DNA from: Deltaproteobacteria bacterium
Lineage (GTDB): Bacteria; Acidobacteriota; Holophagae; Holophagales; Holophagaceae
NCBI GenBank assembly: GCA_020048105.1
Contig: JAIFMW010000076.1
Coordinates: 1 to 32,469, forward strand
DNA length: 32,469 bases
Direction of reading: 5' to 3'
The notes below the pieces were generated by a model. It saw only the letters and a list, made by a program, of their open reading frames with translations. It was not told where the DNA came from and did not search any database. Both the position numbers and the translations under genes were made by a program. Positions 4,470 through 30,843 of the stretch are shown in pieces. Numbering within the stretch: the stretch's first letter is position 1; the number at the start of each line of letters is the position of its first letter.

Positions 4470-5036
4470 ATGAAAACAACCCTACTTCAGCACGTCCAGG
4501 AATCCACCACCCTGAAGGAATTTTTTTTCAAAGCGGAGATCGACCGCATCATCGCCCAGGCCCAGGATATGGCCGAGCGGCTGAGACGAGGTTGCCGCAT
4601 CTTGGTTTGCGGAAATGGCGGCAGCGCGGCCAACGCCCAGCATTTTGCGGCAGCACTCTGCGGTCGCTCTGGAAACGAGCGGAGAGCCTTGGCTGGCATC
4701 GCGCTGGCCACCGACAGCTCCACCCTTACCGCCCTTGGTAGCGCCCATGGCTTTGAAAAGATCTTCTCCCGACAGATCGAAGCCTTGGGCCGCCCCGGCG
4801 ATCTGCTGGTGGCCATCAGCACCAGCGGCAATTGCCCCAACGTGATTTTGGCCGTAAGCGCCGCGAAGGAGCAGGGCATGAAGACCCTTGGGCTGCTGGG
4901 CGGCGATGGCGGTCAGTTGGCCACCCTTTGCGACGAAGCCCTGATCGTCCCCAACCCCGAAACGGCTCGCATTCAGGAAGTGCATCAGATGACCCATCAC
5001 TTCTGGTGCGAAGTGCTCGACACCTGCATCGACTAG
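4470..5036 (+). CDS. SIS-domain protein, GmhA/DiaA-like (possible phosphoheptose isomerase lacking the catalytic Glu)
   Basis: The ATG at 4470 has GGAG 7 nt upstream; a GTG at 4464 is less well placed. The protein has about 188 residues, the normal length for this family. It shows the SIS phosphosugar-binding signatures CGNGGSAANAQHF and ISTSGN and the C-terminal RIQEVHQMTHH, which carries the Gln and His equivalent to E. coli GmhA Q172 and H180. GmhA makes D-glycero-D-manno-heptose 7-phosphate from sedoheptulose 7-phosphate for LPS. Oddity: the usual HFAAEL(V/T)GR reads HFAAALCGR, so the zinc-ligand/base Glu65 is Ala. The E. coli replication regulator DiaA is a GmhA paralogue that also lacks this Glu, so a non-catalytic role is possible. 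The next gene starts 4 nt after the stop, suggesting an operon. Confidence 0.85.
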   Translation: MKTTLLQHVQESTTLKEFFFKAEIDRIIAQAQDMAERLRRGCRILVCGNGGSAANAQHFAAALCGRSGNERRALAGIALATDSSTLTALGSAHGFEKIFSRQIEALGRPGDLLVAISTSGNCPNVILAVSAAKEQGMKTLGLLGGDGGQLATLCDEALIVPNPETARIQEVHQMTHHFWCEVLDTCID

Positions 5037-11201: not shown

Positions 11202-11527
11202 AAGCCTTTCTGCTGACACCCCTGGAAGAAGATCGCACCCCCTTGCCTCCGACCCGGCGCCAAGGGGGTGCGATCCATCTATTTATAAAAAAACCAGTCT
11301 TAGAAAACCTGCCCTGACCCCTCATAATTGAATTTCGTCCTTGAAATCACCTTTGATAGACCGACCCTTGATCGACGGCGCAGAAAAGAGCCCCGCCATC
11401 GAAACAGGCTTTTGTACCCTAACAACTAGCGCTGGCAGGGCAATTCCCTTAGGAAATCTCCCCACACCACGCACCCCATTCCTTCCGTATCCGTTTGTTT
11501 GTCCGGCTCGACCCCTGGAGACAATCC
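11202..11527. other. Intergenic region between pip and the M6-type protease gene (326 nt)
   Basis: It holds the pip hairpin and an AT-rich stretch (11276-11300), then about 200 nt with no coding pattern. A weak promoter-like pair is TTAGAA (11300-11305) and CATAAT (11323-11328), spaced 17 nt, which would give a leader of roughly 190 nt for the protease gene. The -35 match is poor. I see no recognised riboswitch consensus. Confidence 0.35.
11231..11275 (+). terminator. Hairpin terminator after pip
   Basis: A perfect 15-bp stem (11231-11245 pairs with 11261-11275) carries a 15-nt loop, 29 nt after the pip stop. The following sequence is AT-rich (catctatttataaaa) but lacks a true T-run, so termination may be imperfect or the hairpin may serve as a 3'-end stabiliser. 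Confidence 0.6.
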
Positions 11528-14500
11528 ATGAAAATTTCAAAATTCCTCCGATTTGGAGCGGCCCTGTTTGGCACCGCCCTCTGCCTAGTAGCCGGGCCCG
11601 CCTCCCCCGATCCCATCAAGATCCGGCAGCCCGATGGCTCCATCATTCATGCCCGCATCCAGGGCGACGAATTTCAAGGCTGGGTGGAGACTCAGGATGG
11701 CTACACCATTGTGCGAAACAAGAAATCCGGAGTTTGGGAATATGGGGTTCTGGATTCCCTGAGCGGACAGATTCAATCATCGGGTCTCCCGGTGCTACCC
11801 AACGCGCAGGCCCCTTCATTTCTGGAGAAACATCAACAACCCACCCGGAATATGGAGAACCAGGGTCTTCACTTCAAGGGCCTTCAGCAATTTCAGCAGG
11901 AACGAACCCAAGCCGCCCTGAAAGGCTCAGTTGCGGGGCCGCAGTTGGAGCTAGCCCCCATAACGGGCACCCGAAAACTCCTCTTCGTGCTTGTCAATTT
12001 TTCGGATCGCACCCTTACCACCAGCCCCACAACCTGGAACAGCACCATTTTCCAGACCGGTGGAGCAAAATCGGTCCGCCAGTTTTACCAAGATAATTCG
12101 TTCGGTACGCTCGATGTCGCTCCCGTTCCCCACACGCATCCAAGCAGTCCTGCGGGAGTTCTTGCCGTCACCATCGCCTCGGCCCATCCCAATTGTGGCA
12201 AGGATTATGTTTATGCCACAGAAGTAGCTTGGATCAACCAAGCCTTAGCTCAGGCCGCGACTTATGTAGACTTTGCCGCCCTAGATACCAATACAAATGG
12301 AACCATCGAAACCACCGAAGCCGTTTTCTACTTCATTCCGGCGGGGTACGAAGCAGCAGGTTCAGCCAAAACACCAAATATCTGGGCCCATGCCTATAGC
12401 GGTGGAACAGGCCTTACCGCAGGCACAAAGAAAATCACTCGCTGGGCCCTGAACGGCGAACTCAACAACACCGATAACCAGCACCCCATGGGGGTCATCG
12501 CCCACGAATTGGGCCATGCCATGACCGGACTTCCCGATCTCTACGACACCAGCGGCACCAATAGCGGGCTCGGGAACTTCTCTTTAATGGCGGGCGGAAG
12601 TTGGGGAGCAGACACAGGGGAAGAGGGCGGAATCACCCCCGTCACCCTAGACGCCTGGTCCCGCCATCGGCTTGGCTGGACAACTCCCATCACCCCAACG
12701 ACGAACGGAGAAATCGTATCGCTTGGGACCGCTCTTTCAGGTTCTTCAGCCACCGCCCTTCTTCAGAATACGACCCTCTCCTCCCAGGAATATTTCTTAG
12801 TCGAGAACCGCCACCCCTCAAAATGGGATCGCGGCCTTGTACGTTTTTCGGGGTTCGGATCGTCCTGGCAGGGCGGACTGCTTGTGATGCACGTGGATAA
12901 CTCCATTCCAAACAACGCCTACGTGGCCGGTAGCCATCAAATGGTGCTCGCTGAACATGCAGACAATGCGGCTTCGGCAACCTCCGGACGAGGCTCAAGC
13001 CTATTTACGACCACCAACAATAGTTCCTTTATTCCAACGAGCACTCCGGCCTCGAACTATTACAACGGCGCTTCTAGCGCTATGGGTTTCACAGCTGCCT
13101 CGGCTCCAGGCACCACCATGACCTTTACGATGTTTGCAGCCGTGGACGCCACTGCGCCCCTAGGCAAACCCGGCAAGCCCACCGCAACGACCGCGACTGA
13201 CACCGTCACCTTCTCGTGGGACGTCGGCACAGCATCCGACCCTGAATCCGACATCACCGGCTACCGGCTCCAGGTGGGCACCACACCAAGCGGCAACGAT
13301 GTATTTGATGGAATCACCGGCAACGCCATGACCAAAACCCTAACGGACATGGGGCTTAAGGATGGTCAGCCGCTGTATGCTCGAGTCGCTGCCATCAACG
13401 GTGCCTATGCTGCCTTGGAATCTGCCTGGTCCGATACCAGCGACAGCATCGCGGTGGATCTTCCTGTTTTCGATGGCGCTGTGCTCGAAAATACCAACTG
13501 TGCCTTCAAGACCATTGGTCCTTGGGTACCCACGACCAGCACCTTCTATTCCGGTACCAGCTGCGCGGAAACGACAGGCGTCCTGGATAACAGCCGAACC
13601 TACCTTCAAACCCGCGTCACAGGGCCCGGTTCCCTTGAGTTCTATTGGAAGGCTAAATCTGAACCTGGTTATGACTACCTAACCTTCAGCATCGACGGAA
13701 CCGCCCAACCTGGGAAGATCAGCGGCACGACCACATTTGCGAAACAAACCATCGCAGTCCCTGGCGGCTCCCATATCCTCCGCTGGACCTACGCGAAAGA
13801 CGCAGATACTGCGCCAGCAAATGATGGTGCATGGGTGGATTTCGTGACCTGGACGCCTTCGGGTGCCAGTGCTTCGATAAGCCCAGCGACCTACACCACC
13901 ATTACCTCTGGAACTGTCCCCTACATCGCAACGCTTTCTGGGTCCACGCTCAACAGCGCTGCCTGGACGATCAACAATGCGGGCGGCACCTTCTCGCCCC
14001 TTACAACAGCCAGCGGGGGTACCACCACCTTCACTGGCGGGGCTACGGCTGGATCCTTCCTTGTTTCGGCGACTCCTGCAGATTCCGGTGCTATTGCAGG
14101 CACGGCCAGTTTGACGCTGGTGGCGCCTACCAGCGTCAACGTAGGAGTTTCGGCTACTGCCACGAGCGTTTTGATTAATGCGCCCGTAACCTTCACGTCA
14201 TCGGTCACTCAACTCACGAATCCCGCTGTGAGCTGGGGCCTAACCGGCGGAACATTTGGAACACAAACAAGCACCACCGCAACATGGTCCTCCGCAGCCG
14301 CAGGGAACTTCACCATTACCGCCACCAGCACCGTAGCAACGGGACGAAACGGAACGGCCACCGTCACTGTCCTGGATCCGGCCGCCATCACCATCAGCGT
14401 CGATCATCCCACGGCTATGCTACTCCCCGGTGCCACCCAGTCCTTGGTCGGAACAACCAGCACCGGTGCGATTACCTGGTCGCTACCCGTCGGGCAAGGA

Positions 14501-14800
14501 ACACTCAATACCACCAGCACAGCAACCGGAGTCGCCAATGTCTACACCGCTCCGGCCAATCCGATGACAGATCTCACCGCCACGGTGACACTCACCAACT
14601 CCCTGAACACAGCGAAAATGGCCACTTCGATCATCACGGTCAAAACCTACAACGTGAATAACGATGCTGTTCTTGATCTTCGCGACATCCTTACCTTGGC
14701 ATCGGATTGGGGCACCACCAACTCCCGTTCCCGTCTGAGCGGAGGAGCCTCTGTTGGTGAGGCCGATCTCGCCCTTCTCTTAACCGGCCTCGGTTTCTAA
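11528..14800 (+). CDS. Secreted M6-family-like metalloprotease with FN3/Ig-like domains and a C-terminal dockerin-like motif
   Basis: The ATG at 11528 has GGAG 8 nt upstream. The product is 1090 residues. A signal peptide (about 1-27) is followed by an M6-type N-terminal region (IRQPDGSIIHARIQGDEF, WVETQDGYTIV) and a protease domain with zinc motif HELGH (His326, Glu327, His330), GLPDLYD and GLGNFSLMAGGSW. From about 545 comes an FN3-like domain, then a jelly-roll-like domain (about 650-775). Several Ser/Thr-rich Ig-like repeats extend to about 1040. The C-terminal 50 residues contain a dockerin-type calcium loop, N-x-N-x-D-x-x-x-D-x-x-D (NVNNDAVLDLRD), with a degenerate second half (ASVGEADLALLL). 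Oddity: three residues rather than two separate the second His from Gly. Known: M6 proteases (InhA, PrtV) are secreted and degrade proteins. The dockerin-like tail and the lipoprotein 11 nt downstream suggest surface anchoring. Confidence 0.9.
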   Translation: MKISKFLRFGAALFGTALCLVAGPASPDPIKIRQPDGSIIHARIQGDEFQGWVETQDGYTIVRNKKSGVWEYGVLDSLSGQIQSSGLPVLPNAQAPSFLEKHQQPTRNMENQGLHFKGLQQFQQERTQAALKGSVAGPQLELAPITGTRKLLFVLVNFSDRTLTTSPTTWNSTIFQTGGAKSVRQFYQDNSFGTLDVAPVPHTHPSSPAGVLAVTIASAHPNCGKDYVYATEVAWINQALAQAATYVDFAALDTNTNGTIETTEAVFYFIPAGYEAAGSAKTPNIWAHAYSGGTGLTAGTKKITRWALNGELNNTDNQHPMGVIAHELGHAMTGLPDLYDTSGTNSGLGNFSLMAGGSWGADTGEEGGITPVTLDAWSRHRLGWTTPITPTTNGEIVSLGTALSGSSATALLQNTTLSSQEYFLVENRHPSKWDRGLVRFSGFGSSWQGGLLVMHVDNSIPNNAYVAGSHQMVLAEHADNAASATSGRGSSLFTTTNNSSFIPTSTPASNYYNGASSAMGFTAASAPGTTMTFTMFAAVDATAPLGKPGKPTATTATDTVTFSWDVGTASDPESDITGYRLQVGTTPSGNDVFDGITGNAMTKTLTDMGLKDGQPLYARVAAINGAYAALESAWSDTSDSIAVDLPVFDGAVLENTNCAFKTIGPWVPTTSTFYSGTSCAETTGVLDNSRTYLQTRVTGPGSLEFYWKAKSEPGYDYLTFSIDGTAQPGKISGTTTFAKQTIAVPGGSHILRWTYAKDADTAPANDGAWVDFVTWTPSGASASISPATYTTITSGTVPYIATLSGSTLNSAAWTINNAGGTFSPLTTASGGTTTFTGGATAGSFLVSATPADSGAIAGTASLTLVAPTSVNVGVSATATSVLINAPVTFTSSVTQLTNPAVSWGLTGGTFGTQTSTTATWSSAAAGNFTITATSTVATGRNGTATVTVLDPAAITISVDHPTAMLLPGATQSLVGTTSTGAITWSLPVGQGTLNTTSTATGVANVYTAPANPMTDLTATVTLTNSLNTAKMATSIITVKTYNVNNDAVLDLRDILTLASDWGTTNSRSRLSGGASVGEADLALLLTGLGF

Positions 14801-17832: not shown

Positions 17833-20800
17833 TTACCAGAGCAATCCCTGTGGATCGGAAAAGCTGGTACTCAGGGCCCAGGCTCCGCCCTCAATCGCAT
17901 TCGAAGGATCCTCCAGGAATCGCCCAAGGTCCACATGGTCTGTCCTTTCCTGGACGCCCACCCACCCATTGCGGCCACTTTTCTTGGCCGCATAGAGGCA
18001 GCGATCGGCCACCTCCACCACCTTATGCCAATCTGCGGGAGCGCTATCGTCGTCCTCACAGGGGTAAGGAGAAAAGCCAAGGGAGCAAGTTTTGGTGATG
18101 AAGGCCTCGCCTCCCACGTGGAAAGGACGATCCCGAATTCCGGAGAGGATGCGTTCGGCCAGCACATCGGCCTGGGCACGATCCGAGCCCTTGGCGACAA
18201 CCAGGAATTCCTCCCCGCCCCAGCGGATGACAGTGTCGGTATCCCGCACCGCTGCCAGCAGGCGATCTCGCAATTGCTGAAGCACCGAGTCGCCGACGGC
18301 ATGACCATAGGTGTCATTCACCTGTTTGAAATGATCCATATCGATCATTAGAAAAAGCATGTCGATGTTCACGGCCATGCGGGCAATCCCCCGCTTGGCC
18401 AAGGAATGGTGATCCCGGTGGACCTTGGCGAGGTCATCCTCAATGGTCAGGTCCAGGTAGCGGCGATTTTTTAAGCCCGTTAGGGGATCAGTCACCGTGA
18501 GTTGCTGCAGGGTTTGATTGGCCTCGGCTAGCGCCAGCGTGCGTTCGTTCACCAATTGGTCAAGCAGGGCGTTCTTTTTGCGCAAGGAACGAAGGCGCCA
18601 CCAGACCAGCGCAGTGAGCGTGCCGAGGATGCCCAGGCTAGCGAAGGTTCGGAACCACCAGGTTTGCCACCAGGAAGGGTTGATTTGGAAAGGGAACATC
18701 GCCGTGGCACCCCAATGCCCGGCTCCATAACCGGCCCGCACTTCGAAGCGGTAGGAACCCGGTGGAAGGTTGGTGTAGTTGGCCTGCCGGATATCGGTGC
18801 TCCGCCAGGCCTGCTCATAACCCAGAAGACGAATCTGGTGCTGAACCTTGCTCTCGTTCAGGAAGCTGAGTCCGGCGAAGCGAATTTCGGGATTGGCTTC
18901 CCGATGGGGAATATTCAACTCACCCGAATGGGGCAGTGAATAAAATTTGGAGCCGAACGTAGCCGAGAGAATTCGGGTCGGCGGAGGCGTTGAAAACCCC
19001 TGATAGGAAGCCGCATTAAACCTTGCCAGACCACCCAACGTTCCCACCCAGACATTGCCATTGGGTTGGGCAAGGAAAGCATTGGCGTTGCAGTCGTCTC
19101 CGGGGAGCCCCTCGCCCGTCCCGAAAGAATGGATGGAGGCTCCGATGATCCTGTTGATTCCCAGGGAGGTTCCAACCCAGAGCTGCCCCAGAGCATCTTC
19201 CCGAATGAAGTGAACCAGATCGCTGGAGAGGCCCGAACGCGTATCCACCTGCCCCAAAAGGTTGAGTCGACCGTTTTGAACGGCATAGCGGAAGAGCCCT
19301 GGGCTGGCGAGGTAGCTCAGCCAGAGATCTCCGTTGGGTCGTTCCAACACAGCCATAACATGCAGGCTCTCGAGCCCTTCGTCGACTGTGAAGCGAACCC
19401 ACTGACCGTTCTGATGACAAACCAGCCCGTTCGATCCTGCGATCCAAATGCGCCCCTGGCCGCCTCCTGCAATGTCCTGGATGCGTTCATCGGGGCTGCC
19501 CTTGGGCAAGGAGATAGGTTCGGTGCTGTAGCCCGAGCCCTGGCTGAAGGCGCGCCAAAGCCCCATGCGCCGAGTGGCCATGAGGATGTCCCCGGTTGCC
19601 ACATCCTGGTGCAACTTGGTGACGGTGGAGCCTACCTCTTTAAAGTTCTGCCAAGCGTTACCGCGTGGGTCCCACCGCAAGAGAAACGGAGGACCACCAC
19701 CCATCCAAATGGCTCCATCCGGAGTCTGAAGCATGGCCAGTACCGCCACGCCACGTGTTTCGGGCAGCAGATTCCATCCCTTAGGGTTGGCCTGGCAAAC
19801 CCCCAAGGCCGTGCCAATCCAAAAACGTGCTTGGCGATCCAACATCAGGCTTTGCACCACACTGCCGGGAATGCCATCCCGCTGCGTGTATTGCCTCCAG
19901 ACTTCTCGGCCGAGGCTGCGATGGAGGCCCGTTCCGCAGACCCAAAGCGACCCTTCGCGATCCACGAGGGTGCGATTAACCCAGGGCGTGGGCAACCCCT
20001 GATTTTCGCCAAGGTATTCCCAGGTCTCTCCCTTCAAACGAGCCAAGCCCTCCGCCATGGGAATGAGGAGATTGCCCGCTGGGTCGATTTTTAAGGCGCC
20101 GTCGAAAAAGGCCGTGCCCGAGAGGTGCTGATTCATATCCACAAACGCCCCGCCTGTGGCGGGCTGCATCCACAACTGGGCGCGAGTTCGCACCCAGAGT
20201 CGACCCATACCGTCGCGAGCCACGGAATCCAACCGTTCAGTCCAAGGACCCGGCACCTCTCGGGGCGCCGACGCGGTGGGCAGGTCATACGCAAACAACT
20301 TGATTCCACTCACCACGTAGGCCGTGCTCGCATCCAGCCAGAGGGCCCGGGCCGTGGCCTGGCTGGGCCAGCCGGGCATGGGTTCAAAACTATGCTGGCC
20401 GGGCTTTTGGCGGAAAAGACCATGATCCGCTCCAACCCAGATTCGGCCTTCCCGATCCTCGGCAAAGGCAAAAACCTCCGAAGTATTCAGGCCTGCTTTT
20501 GTGCCAAGCGCCTGAATTCGATTGCCTTCCTTGATCGCGACCCCTTGAAGGGTACCCAGCCAGAGTGCCCTTGTCTTGGCAGCAAACACCACGCGCACTA
20601 GATCGGCCGGTAGCCCGTCCTTGGTGGAAAAACGTTGAAACCGATTCCCGTCGTACCGAAAAAGGCCCGACTCGGTGCCCACCCAGAGAAACCCTTCCCC
20701 ATCCTGCTCCAGGGACCACATGGACAGATTGGTCAGCCCCTGCTCGGAGCCGTAGCTCCGGAAAGCCAAGCGCCCCGGGGGAACGCTCGGAAAGGCTCGA

Positions 20801-20892
20801 TCCTCCGCGCGGGCCGGCTGGAGTAATCCAGAAAACAGGATTACGAGAAGTGTCAGCCTGCAGAGAATCCCCACGAACCGCACACCATTCAC
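17833..20892 (-). CDS. Propeller-type sensor diguanylate cyclase (Reg_prop, Y_Y_Y, GGDEF), copy 1
   Basis: The 1019-residue protein has a GTG start with AGAGGA upstream. A signal or anchor segment occupies 1-29. About 650 residues of Reg_prop repeats (FLWVGTESGLFRYDG, RIWVGADHGLFR, NVWVGTLGGLARFN and others) form two periplasmic seven-bladed propellers. A Y_Y_Y domain (LPPGSYRFEVRAGYG) comes before a membrane helix near 770-790, a coiled segment and the GGDEF domain. The catalytic motif GGEEF is at 892-896, with the inhibitory I-site RDTD five residues before it. The purine-contact motif reads NDTYGHAVGD with the canonical Asp, so c-di-GMP rather than cGAMP is predicted. About 20 residues (SLAKRGIARMAVNIDML) are inserted before the FLMIDMDHFK strand. 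Periplasmic ligand unknown. Confidence 0.93.
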   Translation of the reverse strand: MNGVRFVGILCRLTLLVILFSGLLQPARAEDRAFPSVPPGRLAFRSYGSEQGLTNLSMWSLEQDGEGFLWVGTESGLFRYDGNRFQRFSTKDGLPADLVRVVFAAKTRALWLGTLQGVAIKEGNRIQALGTKAGLNTSEVFAFAEDREGRIWVGADHGLFRQKPGQHSFEPMPGWPSQATARALWLDASTAYVVSGIKLFAYDLPTASAPREVPGPWTERLDSVARDGMGRLWVRTRAQLWMQPATGGAFVDMNQHLSGTAFFDGALKIDPAGNLLIPMAEGLARLKGETWEYLGENQGLPTPWVNRTLVDREGSLWVCGTGLHRSLGREVWRQYTQRDGIPGSVVQSLMLDRQARFWIGTALGVCQANPKGWNLLPETRGVAVLAMLQTPDGAIWMGGGPPFLLRWDPRGNAWQNFKEVGSTVTKLHQDVATGDILMATRRMGLWRAFSQGSGYSTEPISLPKGSPDERIQDIAGGGQGRIWIAGSNGLVCHQNGQWVRFTVDEGLESLHVMAVLERPNGDLWLSYLASPGLFRYAVQNGRLNLLGQVDTRSGLSSDLVHFIREDALGQLWVGTSLGINRIIGASIHSFGTGEGLPGDDCNANAFLAQPNGNVWVGTLGGLARFNAASYQGFSTPPPTRILSATFGSKFYSLPHSGELNIPHREANPEIRFAGLSFLNESKVQHQIRLLGYEQAWRSTDIRQANYTNLPPGSYRFEVRAGYGAGHWGATAMFPFQINPSWWQTWWFRTFASLGILGTLTALVWWRLRSLRKKNALLDQLVNERTLALAEANQTLQQLTVTDPLTGLKNRRYLDLTIEDDLAKVHRDHHSLAKRGIARMAVNIDMLFLMIDMDHFKQVNDTYGHAVGDSVLQQLRDRLLAAVRDTDTVIRWGGEEFLVVAKGSDRAQADVLAERILSGIRDRPFHVGGEAFITKTCSLGFSPYPCEDDDSAPADWHKVVEVADRCLYAAKKSGRNGWVGVQERTDHVDLGRFLEDPSNAIEGGAWALSTSFSDPQGLLW

Positions 20893-22299: not shown

Positions 22300-22563
22300 C
22301 TAATCCGTGGCAAACGGCAGCAGAGCGATGTTTCGCGAGCGCTTGATGGCCTCGACGAGCATGCGCTGATGGAGGGCGCACACGCCGCTGGTGCGACGGG
22401 GCAGCACCTTGCCACGCTCGGGGGTGAAGCCCTGAAGGGTCTTCACATCCTTGTAATCGACAAACGTGGACTTCTCGACGCAGAACTTGCAGAACTTGCT
22501 GCGCCGACCGCCAAACTGCTTCTTCTTCTTGGGCTTGCCCTTTGCGTCCGTGCGCTTCTTCAT
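22300..22563 (-). CDS. rpsR: 30S ribosomal protein S18
   Basis: The 87-residue protein has a basic N-terminus ([15 protein letters not shown]). The S18 core follows: [37 protein letters not shown] and [12 protein letters not shown]. It binds 16S rRNA in the platform of the small subunit as a dimer with S6. The four potential metal ligands C25, C28, C62 and H65 are all present, so this is the zinc-binding (C+) form. Its ATG overlaps the rpsF stop by 4 nt (ATGA), indicating translational coupling with its partner S6. The transcript ends at the hairpin 19 nt downstream. Confidence 0.97.
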
Positions 22564-22949
22564 CCCATCACCTCTTCAGCGGAACGCTCCTTGATGCCGG
22601 CCTGAGCCTTACGCTTGGCTTCCCGAGCGTAACGAACCTTCTGGCGTTCAGCGGCCTTGGCCTGCTCGTCCATGCGAATGGACATGAACTTGATCACGGC
22701 GTCGTGGTTGCGGAAGCGACGTTCGAGCTCGGCGATGAGGCTGGAACCCGCGTTCATTTCGAACAGCGTGTAGTAGCCTTCGCTAAACTTCTGGACTTCA
22801 TAGGCCAACTTCTTGCGGCCCCACTTGTCGGTCTTGAGCAGTTCGCCACCCTGCTCGGCAATGATTCCCTCGAAATAGCGGACAAGTTCGTCAACCTGCT
22901 CGTCCGTCAAAGTCGGGGAGGCGATAAAGATCGTCTCGTATAGACGCAT
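22560..22949 (-). CDS. rpsF: 30S ribosomal protein S6
   Basis: The 129-residue protein has an ATG with a near-ideal AAGGAGGA about 5 nt upstream. The S6 pattern is complete: [23 protein letters not shown], the [23 protein letters not shown] block with the RNA/S18-contact residues, and [18 protein letters not shown]. The C-terminal tail is charged ([15 protein letters not shown]), longer than the minimal S6. It pairs with S18, whose gene overlaps by 4 nt. The 84-nt leader holds a hairpin with a CCG loop that could bind S6:S18 for feedback control. Confidence 0.97.
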
Positions 22950-23033: not shown

Positions 23034-23579
23034 TCAGGGTTTGGCTTGTGGCTCAAGGGGAGTTTCTGAAAGAGCCGCTTCAGGGACCTGCCAAAAGGCG
23101 GCGCCATTCACCTTTCCATTCAACTCCGCGAGGTCTTGGCAACCGGCCAGAAGTTCCATGAAGCGCGCGAAAGGCACGTCCATGGCCGTGATGCGGGCCG
23201 CTTCCTCGGGGGTCCACTCCTGGAGCACGAACTCGTGCAAGGGGCGAATGAAGGGTCCAATGCCCAACCGAAGCCGAGCAAAATCCTGGCCGCCCAAATG
23301 ATCGATCACACTCTGGACGCCGTTGTGCCCCCCGGCGCTGCCCTCCAACCGAAAGCGCCCCAGCCCTAAGGGCAGATCCTTGTCATCGAAAAGCACAATC
23401 ATCCGAGCCGGGTCCAACCCCGCCGCCAGCGCCTCGGCACAGACTTGACCCGACAGATTCATGTAGGTGCCCGGCACCAGGATCTGAAAGGATTCACCCA
23501 ACCGATTAAGCGTGCCCGTCTTGTAGCGCGAGATCGGCGAAGTTTTGACACCTCGCGGCTCAATCCAGCGCTGAAGCAT
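23034..23579 (-). CDS. pth: Peptidyl-tRNA hydrolase, 5' end missing or mis-assembled
   Basis: From the first ATG (23579) the product is 181 residues and lacks the family N-terminus. The same frame is open upstream to a TAA at 23637-23639 and there encodes AATRHNLGRL, the conserved TRHN(V/L)G segment with the catalytic His (E. coli His20). So the real gene begins further upstream, but no ATG, GTG or TTG exists between the TAA and 23579, and the expected GLGNPG reads NGRPGRP. The rest is intact: PGTYMNLSG, LFDDKDLPLG and GSAGGHNGVQS...RLRLGIG, carrying the Asn68, Asp93 and Asn114 equivalents. The enzyme recycles peptidyl-tRNA and is usually essential; rplY-pth is a common pair. A recent 5' deletion or an assembly error fits better than an old pseudogene. 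Confidence 0.85.
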   Translation of the reverse strand: MLQRWIEPRGVKTSPISRYKTGTLNRLGESFQILVPGTYMNLSGQVCAEALAAGLDPARMIVLFDDKDLPLGLGRFRLEGSAGGHNGVQSVIDHLGGQDFARLRLGIGPFIRPLHEFVLQEWTPEEAARITAMDVPFARFMELLAGCQDLAELNGKVNGAAFWQVPEAALSETPLEPQAKP

Positions 23580-23608
23580 GAGGCGCCCCAGGTTATGCCG
23601 CGTCGCCG

Positions 23609-23635
23609 CAAATGGCCGCCCAGGGCGGCCATTTG
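23609..23635 (-). terminator. Palindrome between rplY and pth
   Basis: A perfect 12-bp stem with 3-nt loop has the same GGCCGCC core as the terminator after rpsR. It begins 19 nt after the rplY stop, but on the minus strand it is followed by CGGCG instead of a T-run. It occupies the place where the first codons of pth should be. Confidence 0.6.
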
Positions 23636-23654
23636 TTTACCATAAAAAAACGAA

Positions 23655-24290
23655 CTACTTCTTGTCGCTCTTGGCCTTGGCGGGTGCAGCTTCGGGCTCC
23701 TTGGCGGCCACGGCGGCTTCTTCTTCCTCGGCCTTCTTGCCGTGGACGGAGCAGATCACGTTGTGAGCATCGCCCAGCACTGTGAGGTGAGCATCCAGCT
23801 GAATCTGGTCCAGACGCAGCACATCGCCGATCACCATGTGATCCACGGCGACATCGATGTGGCCGGGAATAAAGGCGGGGAGGCATTCCACTTCGATCTG
23901 ACGATGAACGAAGTCCAGGATGCCACCTTCCTTGGTGCCCGCAGGAATACCCTTCAACACGATGGGAACATGCACCCGCACCTTGTGGGTGGGATCGACG
24001 CGCATGAAATCCACGTGGGCCAAACGGCCGGTGACAGGGTCGCGCTGCAGGGCCTTGATGATGACGTGGCGCTTGATATCCGTGCCTTCGCGCTGCAGGT
24101 GGACCAGGGAGTTCATGCCCGTTTCGCTGGCCAGAATGCGGGCCACAATCTTGGGGTTGATACCGATGGACACGGCGGGCTCGGCGAGTCCGTAGATGGT
24201 GGCGGGGATCATGCCGGTGGCACGCATATCGCGAGTCGATGACTTACCGACCTTTTCACGCTTGGTAACAATGATGACTTCACTACTCAT
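23655..24290 (-). CDS. rplY: 50S ribosomal protein L25/general stress protein Ctc
   Basis: This is a 211-residue protein of the long (TL5/Ctc) form. The N-terminal 5S-rRNA-binding L25 domain (1-95) includes GKSSTRDMRATGMIPATIYG and RHVIIKALQRDPVTGRLAHVDFMRV. The C-terminal beta domain (about 100-185) includes VPIVLKGIPAGTKEGGILD and GHIDVAVDHMVIGDVLRL. An acidic/Ala-Lys tail (KKAEEEEAAVAAKEPEAAPAKAKSDKK is interrupted by AVAA) closes it. The ATG has an ideal AGGAGGA upstream. It heads the minus-strand cluster rplY-pth-rpsF-rpsR and is divergent from ppk across 158 nt, where the promoter must lie. Its frame is the same as that of pth, separated by a TAG and a TAA. Confidence 0.96.
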   Translation of the reverse strand: MSSEVIIVTKREKVGKSSTRDMRATGMIPATIYGLAEPAVSIGINPKIVARILASETGMNSLVHLQREGTDIKRHVIIKALQRDPVTGRLAHVDFMRVDPTHKVRVHVPIVLKGIPAGTKEGGILDFVHRQIEVECLPAFIPGHIDVAVDHMVIGDVLRLDQIQLDAHLTVLGDAHNVICSVHGKKAEEEEAAVAAKEPEAAPAKAKSDKK

Positions 24291-27750: not shown

Positions 27751-30700
27751 GTGAAACGTGCAATTTTCAGCTGCCTGCTCGGGATCGCGGCCTGTTTTGG
27801 GCTGCTGGGCGGAGCGCCACCACCGCCCTTGAAGGCGCCTCCCGGCATCATGGCTTTCCGCAGTTTCGGAGTCGACCAAGGCCTTAGCAACCTCTCTACT
27901 GTGGCCATGGCACAAGACCACGATGGATTTCTCTGGGTGGGCACCGAGGATGGACTCTTCCGCCAGGAGGGTGATAAATTTCGCCGTTTTGGGGAAGCCG
28001 AAGGTTTGCCTTCGGCGCGCATCGACCCCAACGGCATCTCCGTTGGGAAAACTCGCGGCCTCTGGGTTTCTACGTCGCGGGGCCTAGTTTTCTGGGATGG
28101 GCTGAGCTTTCTTCGACCCTCCGCCATGGGAATGAAGGGGCTCGATGGCCGACCGGCAACCTGTCTGCCTCAGGGCGGGGTCATTCTGTCGGATCAGCCC
28201 AGCAACACACGCTTCCTTGGCCTGGATGGCCATGATTTCACGCCCCTAAGCGGCCTTCCCTGGGGCAATGGCCTCACCGCTTCGACGTATTCTGCGGAAC
28301 AAGATTTGTTCTTAGCCGCACTCGGGCAGGAACTCTGGGCTCGCCATCGAGGTGTTTGGTCCCATCGCGATCTTTCTCCCTTCCTGGGCCAAGACATCCG
28401 GGTTTTGCGCATCGACAGCAAGGGGCAGATCTGGATGCGCTGCACCGAGCGCCTCGCCAAAATGGCCAATTTGAACGCTACCGTCGAAAGCCTTACGACC
28501 CCGATTCCGCTTGCCGCCGTTAATTCCTCAAATTTGGGGGTAGATGGCCAAGGGCGACTCTGGACCAATGCCCCCCAAGGCTTGGTCTGGTTAGATGGGC
28601 AAAACTCCGGCGTCATCGGCCTGAACGAGGGGCTTCCCCAGGGGGGGGCCGTAGTGCTCTGTGTGGATCACCAAGGCACCGTCTGGATCGGGGGCGAAGG
28701 TTGCCACAAGCTCCTAGGCGAGGGACTTTGGACAGGTTGGACTCGCAAACAAGGCTTGCCGACCGATATTGTTTGGACCATAACTCGGACTCAAGACGGG
28801 CTTCTTTGGGCAGGCACAGCTGCCGGCCTTGCGAGAGGGGACGAACGTGGGTGGAAAATGCTTCCCCAAACCCACGGTAACCAGTTCATGGCCTTGGCCG
28901 AGGATGTCGATGGCAACCTCTGGGCCGGACACCTTCGATCCACCGAACGCCCCGCCGGGCTCTCAGTGCGAGCGAAAGGCGCTTCCGTGCTTCAACCGGT
29001 CTCCATTCCAGGGTTGATTCCGGAAGGCAGCGTGGCTTCGCTGCTGGCGGAAGGCACCACTCTTTGGGTAGGAACCACATCCGCAGGGCTCCTTCGTGCC
29101 ACAAGAAAAGGCACATCACTCACGTTCCAACCCATCACCATTGGCAATTGGCCTAGGCTCGACAGCATCCAACGCATCATTTCGGACGGCCATCAAGGGC
29201 TTTGGGTGGCCGGCTCGCATGGCCTAGCCCACTGGAATGGTCAGACCTGGGTCACCCTCGACAAGTCCTCAGGGCTACCCGAAGATACCGCCCTGACAAT
29301 TGCTGCCATGCCGAACGGCGAGGCTTGGGCCAGCTTTACCGAAGCCATTGCGCTGGTTCGAATTCGTCGGCAGGGTGAACGCCTGGAACTCTTGGAAACC
29401 CTTCGCGCTCCCCACCCCTTACTCAAGAATCCCATTATCACGATGATCAGTCAGCTAGATGGCATTCTCTGGCTGGGCACTTCCCGAGGCCTGTTGAGGT
29501 GGGATGGCCACCGCGTAGAACGCTACGGTCGGCACACGGGCTTACCCGGTGAGGACTGTGCTCAAAATGCGCTGTGGTTCGACCCCAATGGGGATGTCTG
29601 GGTAGGACTCAGCGTTGGCTTGGCGAAGGGGCGACTGGCCTTGCGCACCGGTGATCAGACCCCGCCACCGGCGCAGATTTTTGCAGCTCGACGCGGTGAT
29701 GAGCAATCTGTTCTTGTCGATAAGGCTGATCGCCTCATCCCATGGGCCTTCCGGACACTCACCTTCAACTATGGCCCCAAGGGTTCCCTTCGCACGGAGG
29801 ACCTGTCCTACCAGGTTCGTCTCATCGGAATCGAGGATCGCTGGCGTGACACCACTCTCCCCGAGTCCCGTTATCCCAGCCTGGGTGCGGGCGTTTATCG
29901 TTTTGAAGTTCGGACCGTCAATTCCGTCGGCGAAACCGGCGGGCTTTCCAGCGTGGATTTTCGCATCCTGGCACCCTGGTGGCTGCGTCCCTGGTTCCTG
30001 GTCCTGGCGGGACTCTTGGTCGTTGGGCTGAGTCTGCTTGGTTTTCGTTGGCGCACGCAGCTCCTGCGTCGACACAATCTGCAGCTCGAAGCCTTGGTCC
30101 ATGCCCGCACTCTCGAATTAGAGATCGCCAATTCCTCGCTGCTGGAAGCCAGTCTCATCGATCCACTGACGGGGTTACACAATCGCCGCTTCCTGTCCAT
30201 GACCATGCCTGAAGAAGAAATTCGGCTTCACCGCATGTTCCGCAATTACCTCCAAAAGGGCGAGAATCCGCTTAACCGCAACGAAGATCTGGTGCTATTC
30301 CTCGGGGATCTGGATCATTTCAAGCATGTCAACGACACCTACGGTCATGCCGCTGGGGATCTGGTGCTGCAGCAAACGGCCCAGGTTCTGCGCGGGGTAT
30401 GCCGCACCTCGGACACGCTGGTGCGCTGGGGCGGCGAGGAATTTCTCTTGGTTGCCAAGCGTTCGGATCGGGAGAAGGCTCATCAGATTGCCGAGAAACT
30501 TTGTCAGGCAATGCGTTACCACACCTTCGTACTACCCGATGAGCAGACGTTGCACTGCACCATGTCCATCGGATACGCCGCCTTCCCCATCCTGGATCAA
30601 CACCCCGAGGCCATGACCTGGGAAGACACGTTGCAGGTGGCCGATCAATGCATGTATGCCGCCAAGCACGCGGGTCGGGATGGCTGGGTAGGCATGCACA

Positions 30701-30843
30701 CCCCCGGTCCCGTGGATGCTCCCGATATTGCTTCGCGCTTCCGTGTAGATCTCGAAAGTCTGGTTCGGGAAGGCCAAGCCCAGATCTCCAGCAGTTTCCC
30801 CGAGGGCAGAGCCTTTGGCGGAAGAGATATCCGCATCGAATAG
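27751..30843 (+). CDS. Propeller-type sensor diguanylate cyclase (Reg_prop, Y_Y_Y, GGDEF), copy 2
   Basis: The 1030-residue protein has a GTG start with GAGGA 5 nt upstream. A signal peptide spans 1-22. The Reg_prop repeats begin with AFRSFGVDQGLSNLSTVAMAQD and FLWVGTEDGLFRQEG, closely matching copy 1, and continue to about 630. Then come Y_Y_Y (LGAGVYRFEVRTVNS), one membrane helix (about 750-770), a short coil and the GGDEF domain. GGEEF lies at 894-898 and I-site RTSD five residues before it. NDTYGHAAGD has the Asp expected of a c-di-GMP-forming enzyme. Compared with copy 1 the propeller sequence is much more diverged than the cyclase, suggesting a different ligand with the same output. Its stop codon directly abuts the stop of the convergent MFS gene. 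Confidence 0.94.
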   Translation: MKRAIFSCLLGIAACFGLLGGAPPPPLKAPPGIMAFRSFGVDQGLSNLSTVAMAQDHDGFLWVGTEDGLFRQEGDKFRRFGEAEGLPSARIDPNGISVGKTRGLWVSTSRGLVFWDGLSFLRPSAMGMKGLDGRPATCLPQGGVILSDQPSNTRFLGLDGHDFTPLSGLPWGNGLTASTYSAEQDLFLAALGQELWARHRGVWSHRDLSPFLGQDIRVLRIDSKGQIWMRCTERLAKMANLNATVESLTTPIPLAAVNSSNLGVDGQGRLWTNAPQGLVWLDGQNSGVIGLNEGLPQGGAVVLCVDHQGTVWIGGEGCHKLLGEGLWTGWTRKQGLPTDIVWTITRTQDGLLWAGTAAGLARGDERGWKMLPQTHGNQFMALAEDVDGNLWAGHLRSTERPAGLSVRAKGASVLQPVSIPGLIPEGSVASLLAEGTTLWVGTTSAGLLRATRKGTSLTFQPITIGNWPRLDSIQRIISDGHQGLWVAGSHGLAHWNGQTWVTLDKSSGLPEDTALTIAAMPNGEAWASFTEAIALVRIRRQGERLELLETLRAPHPLLKNPIITMISQLDGILWLGTSRGLLRWDGHRVERYGRHTGLPGEDCAQNALWFDPNGDVWVGLSVGLAKGRLALRTGDQTPPPAQIFAARRGDEQSVLVDKADRLIPWAFRTLTFNYGPKGSLRTEDLSYQVRLIGIEDRWRDTTLPESRYPSLGAGVYRFEVRTVNSVGETGGLSSVDFRILAPWWLRPWFLVLAGLLVVGLSLLGFRWRTQLLRRHNLQLEALVHARTLELEIANSSLLEASLIDPLTGLHNRRFLSMTMPEEEIRLHRMFRNYLQKGENPLNRNEDLVLFLGDLDHFKHVNDTYGHAAGDLVLQQTAQVLRGVCRTSDTLVRWGGEEFLLVAKRSDREKAHQIAEKLCQAMRYHTFVLPDEQTLHCTMSIGYAAFPILDQHPEAMTWEDTLQVADQCMYAAKHAGRDGWVGMHTPGPVDAPDIASRFRVDLESLVREGQAQISSSFPEGRAFGGRDIRIE

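Follow-up and report, generated by a model that had tools for sequence, protein, structure and literature searches.

The gene for peptidyl-tRNA hydrolase (pth) in the window, that is, in the whole 32,469-nt stretch of DNA analysed here, lacks 60 bp at its 5′ end relative to the relatives read. The deletion has exact ends, the gene is otherwise conserved, and no second Pth is found in the contigs of the genome. We infer an artefactual origin: the loss was probably provoked in vitro or during assembly by a strong hairpin, and is most probably not fixed in the living organism. As recorded, and as far as can be read from the DNA, pth cannot yield a working peptidyl-tRNA hydrolase. The window belongs to an uncultured member of the Holophagaceae, represented by a draft genome (G000; 246 contigs, 2.95 Mb, 81.8% complete, about 18% missing) whose closest named relatives by protein similarity are Holophagaceae MAGs.

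Structure of the rplY–pth Junction

The order of genes on the minus strand is rplY (L25), hairpin, pth, rpsF (S6), and rpsR (S18). The rplY gene (23655..24290, minus strand; TIGR00731, 127.7 bits for a cut-off of 73.1) codes for an intact 50S ribosomal protein L25 of the CTC type, nearly identical to that of the sister genome, and ends in TAG. The C-terminal tail of L25 (window 23655-23680) shows a 9-bp indel relative to the sister, directly 5′ of the stop. The next genes of the cluster, rpsF (30S S6; 22560..22949, minus strand; TIGR00166) and rpsR (30S S18; 22300..22563, minus strand; TIGR00165), are also intact. An in-frame TAA (23637..23639, minus strand) lies upstream of the pth frame, and the minus strand reads ...SDKK-TAG-FVFLW-TAA-TNGRPGRPFAATRHNLGRLM, so that rplY and pth do share one frame with only TAG and TAA between them, as the preliminary description had it. 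Elsewhere on the contig, two proteins of similar build (1019 and 1030 aa; 17833-20892 and 27751-30843), encoded on opposite strands, resemble sensor diguanylate cyclases (GGEEF), and a protein of 1101 aa (11495-14800) resembles a secreted M6-type metalloprotease.

The nearest genome, G001, is from the same genus, and its Pth is 93% identical. In the pairwise base alignment with its contig C114, rplY, hairpin, and pth are collinear with the window, with 89-90% nucleotide identity on either side of a junction at 23608..23609 (minus strand), where 60 bp of G001 are absent. These 60 bp hold the Shine-Dalgarno sequence AAGGAGG, a GTG start, and codons 1-14 (MWVLVPLGNPGAEY). After the hairpin, G001 continues with TATAGAAGGAGGCC..., the GTG, codons 1-14, and then AATRHNLG; in the window the hairpin runs directly into codon 15 (GCG GCG ACG CGG CAT). 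The breakpoints are the 3′ arm of the hairpin, the end of which is the upstream one, and codon 15, with a microhomology of 2 nt (TG). This confirms the earlier proposal, in which a deletion had fused pth, from about codon 14, to the stem of the rplY terminator.

What remains of pth (23034..23609, minus strand) is codons 15-205 and the stop. The remnant matches PF01195 and scores 109.4 bits with TIGR00447, above the cut-off of 100, though only from profile position 15; the Pth of the sister scores 135 bits from position 1. As in the Pth1 of E. coli (2PTH), one finds TRHN, TYMNLSG, FDDKDLP, and GGHNG, the segments of the catalytic His (E. coli His20) and of Asp93 (TRHN and DDKDLP) being kept in frame. 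Unlike it, the remnant has no start, no β-strand 1, and no GNPG, the motif that holds the catalytic Asn (Asn10 of E. coli). The literature names Asn10, His20, and Asp93 as key residues of Pth1 and describes the enzyme as essential to E. coli and to most bacteria (PMC4929431, PMC8071115), in agreement with the remark that Pth is normally essential. The window also lacks a translatable frame for pth: the AAGGAGG of G001 is absent, and no ATG, GTG, or TTG occurs from the TAA at 23637-23639 to TRHN, as had been noted; CTG, ATT, ATC, and ATA are absent in frame too. The first in-frame ATG, at 23579, had rightly been dismissed as the true start, because it lies downstream of the catalytic-His segment. 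The expected GLGNPG had been read as NGRPGRP. The motif is indeed gone, but NGRPGRP is what the hairpin DNA encodes in this frame; its likeness to GLGNPG is therefore due to chance and not to mutation of the original motif.

The Intergenic Hairpin

The hairpin between rplY and pth is a perfect palindrome of 27 nt (CAAATGGCCGCCC-T-GGGCGGCCATTTG; 23609..23635, minus strand), with 13-bp arms around one central base, hence one pair longer than the perfect 12-bp palindrome first described. Its stem, which a simple window scan does not list, is worth -23.7 to -33.8 kcal/mol (-23.7 kcal/mol in the context of the window), and its tail in intact relatives is only ATTTGTTTA or ATTTGTATA. The palindrome extends to 31 nt in G001 and to 35 nt in another genome of the genus, G003, with an unchanged core. 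This core is identical in the window, in G001 (C114:2885-2911), and in G003 (C32, about 4801-4823), though the Pth of G003 is only 70% identical. In G001 and G003 it stands in the rplY–pth gap, and no further occurrence was found in the sampled family. A copy with one mismatch (G000:C50:7791-7813, locus L116) is flanked by two convergent ORFs, the position expected of a bidirectional terminator. A repeated mobile element can be rejected: G000 has only one other near-copy, and the sampled genomes outside the genus have none. Perfect palindromes of at least 24 nt are rare in G000, with only four in 685 kb, and the pth lesion lies at the edge of one of them.

The hairpin is best read as a putative rplY terminator. 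It shares with the intrinsic terminators of rplY–pth gaps its GC-rich stem, many other family genomes having different GC-rich hairpins at this place, and differs in its tail, as ATTTGTTTA is not a true T-run. The preliminary description was correct in that the T-run is absent, but the lesion is not the reason, because in the intact relatives G001 and G003 the hairpin continues into ATTTGTATAG and ATTTGTTTAATG: a weak T tail is a native trait of the genus. Since the hairpin of G001 abuts the ribosome-binding site of pth and has no true T-run behind it, partial readthrough is likely.

The Junction in Related Genomes

The junction was read in 35 family loci, several of them on single-contig genomes; the genus itself is sampled by four genomes only. 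All 35 keep PLGNPG, the window alone being without it, and the loci read through have a normal ATG, GTG, or TTG start upstream of pth. The comparison with the rplY–pth junctions of relatives, which had been suggested along with the original observation, thus finds every one intact. None shows a junction like that of the window, which is therefore private to the window record within the material examined, and is not a product of chance. With the relatives intact at this point, the junction most likely reflects an error of sequencing or assembly, or else a very young mutation, rather than new biology.

Some other pth genes of the family have a TTG or GTG start directly behind rplY, and some Pth proteins (L004, L027, L028, L030, and L036) seem to have a short N-terminal extension before the WxxxPLGNPG strand. 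The pth gene of G013 is split across two contigs, probably through incomplete assembly, and the pth profile has no match in G005 and G021, probably for the same reason.

Selection on pth and Other Hydrolases

Over the 191 codons (15-205) that can be compared with G001, there are no indels, and dN is 0.037 for a dS of 0.55 (dN/dS about 0.07). On these codons, pth was under strong purifying selection until very recently, and the lesion is therefore very recent or not in the organism at all.

Neither a second pth (PF01195) nor a Pth2 (PF01981) was found in the G000 contigs, nor was a copy of the missing 60-bp segment; this absence is not proof, because about 18% of the genome is missing. One ArfB-like protein with a GGQ motif is present (G000:C21:7294-7656). 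Similar short RF-1-domain matches occur in most of the family relatives searched, nearly all of which have an intact pth, and the gene is therefore no special back-up.

Origin of the Deletion

An artefact could have arisen in two ways. The polymerase may have slipped at the strong hairpin in library preparation or amplification, with the loss of 60 bp, or reads may have been badly joined at the hairpin within a fragmentary draft assembly. In vitro, hairpins do cause DNA polymerases to stall and to slip (PMC4134008). The window resembles such cases in having a breakpoint in a strong stem and short imperfect repeats on both sides. It differs in that the published systems lose the hairpin itself, which lies between direct repeats, while here a 60-bp flank is lost and the hairpin stays, and in that the repeats are very short. 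In G001 the hairpin carries one of them, GGGCGGccatttG, and codons 10-14 the other, GGGCGGaatatG, in the arrangement that slipped-strand deletion predicts. Assembly errors account for many apparent pseudogenes of bacteria (PMC11017572), and the window shares with these an isolated lesion, a conserved and probably essential gene, and a fragmentary draft; it differs from them in showing a clean 60-bp deletion at a hairpin, not a one-base frameshift or internal stop. We found little literature on hairpin-linked errors in MAGs.

An assembly collapse at the hairpin had been offered as an alternative to a deletion. Its artefactual part is favoured here, but a classical k-mer collapse between repeats is unlikely and can be rejected as a simple explanation, because only 2 nt are common to the two sides exactly at the junction and no more than 6 nt nearby, the longest word found on both in the sister being GGGCGG. 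The junction is better explained by a read that slipped or is chimeric, or by a faulty local join; at least one such aberrant read or join is needed to produce it.

A generally poor assembly is also rejected, as far as the alignment of G000 with G001 shows: it covers about 36.6 kb of sampled parts of both genomes, and nowhere else in it is conserved coding sequence seen to be deleted. The other gaps of at least 15 bp (26 and 45 bp, plus a clean break of 102 bp) lie at gene ends or in intergenic regions, and three more breaks are stretches present in both genomes but diverged. A lone coding lesion of this kind, in a gene that is conserved over the rest of its length and intact in the sister, is consistent with an artefact.

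The main competing explanation, possible though clearly the less probable of the two, is that the sequenced strain, or a sub-population, has truly undergone a deletion very recently. It would have arisen by slippage between the hairpin arm and codons 10-14, leaving pth dead or nearly so, a state either lethal in the long term or compensated elsewhere. The sharp breakpoints, the TG microhomology, and the shared GGGCGG in the correct relative position are as such slippage would leave them. The remainder of the contig sample is clean, so that the pth region is not a generally poor stretch. Against it stand the essentiality of Pth1 in most bacteria, the dN/dS of the remnant, and the failure to find a second Pth, a Pth2, or the missing segment in the available contigs.

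It is highly doubtful that the sole Pth1 truly lacks its start and catalytic Asn while the cell survives, whether through another hydrolase or through a Pth, fused or truncated, whose synthesis needs no normal start; such functional readings together carry only a slight probability. In one of them, which we consider very improbable, the deletion is real and Pth is made either by ribosomes that pass from rplY through TAG and TAA or from an internal start at 23579. The common frame with only two stops between the genes would allow for this, but no relative read has such a junction and no recoding signal was recognised. Readthrough, already called remote in the preliminary description, is unsupported because two different stops would have to be passed and the product would still lack β-strand 1 and have Arg in place of the catalytic Asn; a start at 23579 would lose the catalytic His as well. 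Just as improbably, Pth would be dispensable and another enzyme, such as the ArfB-like protein present in G000, would hydrolyse peptidyl-tRNA; but ArfB works on stalled ribosomes and is not known to act on free peptidyl-tRNA, and the family relatives with similar short matches nearly all keep pth.

Implications

Automatic annotation of this record would misplace the start of pth at 23579. As the evidence stands, the case calls for caution, since a single strong hairpin can make an essential gene of a draft genome look convincingly lost when it is not. A real and fixed deletion would make the organism a rare natural example of bacterial life without an intact Pth1.
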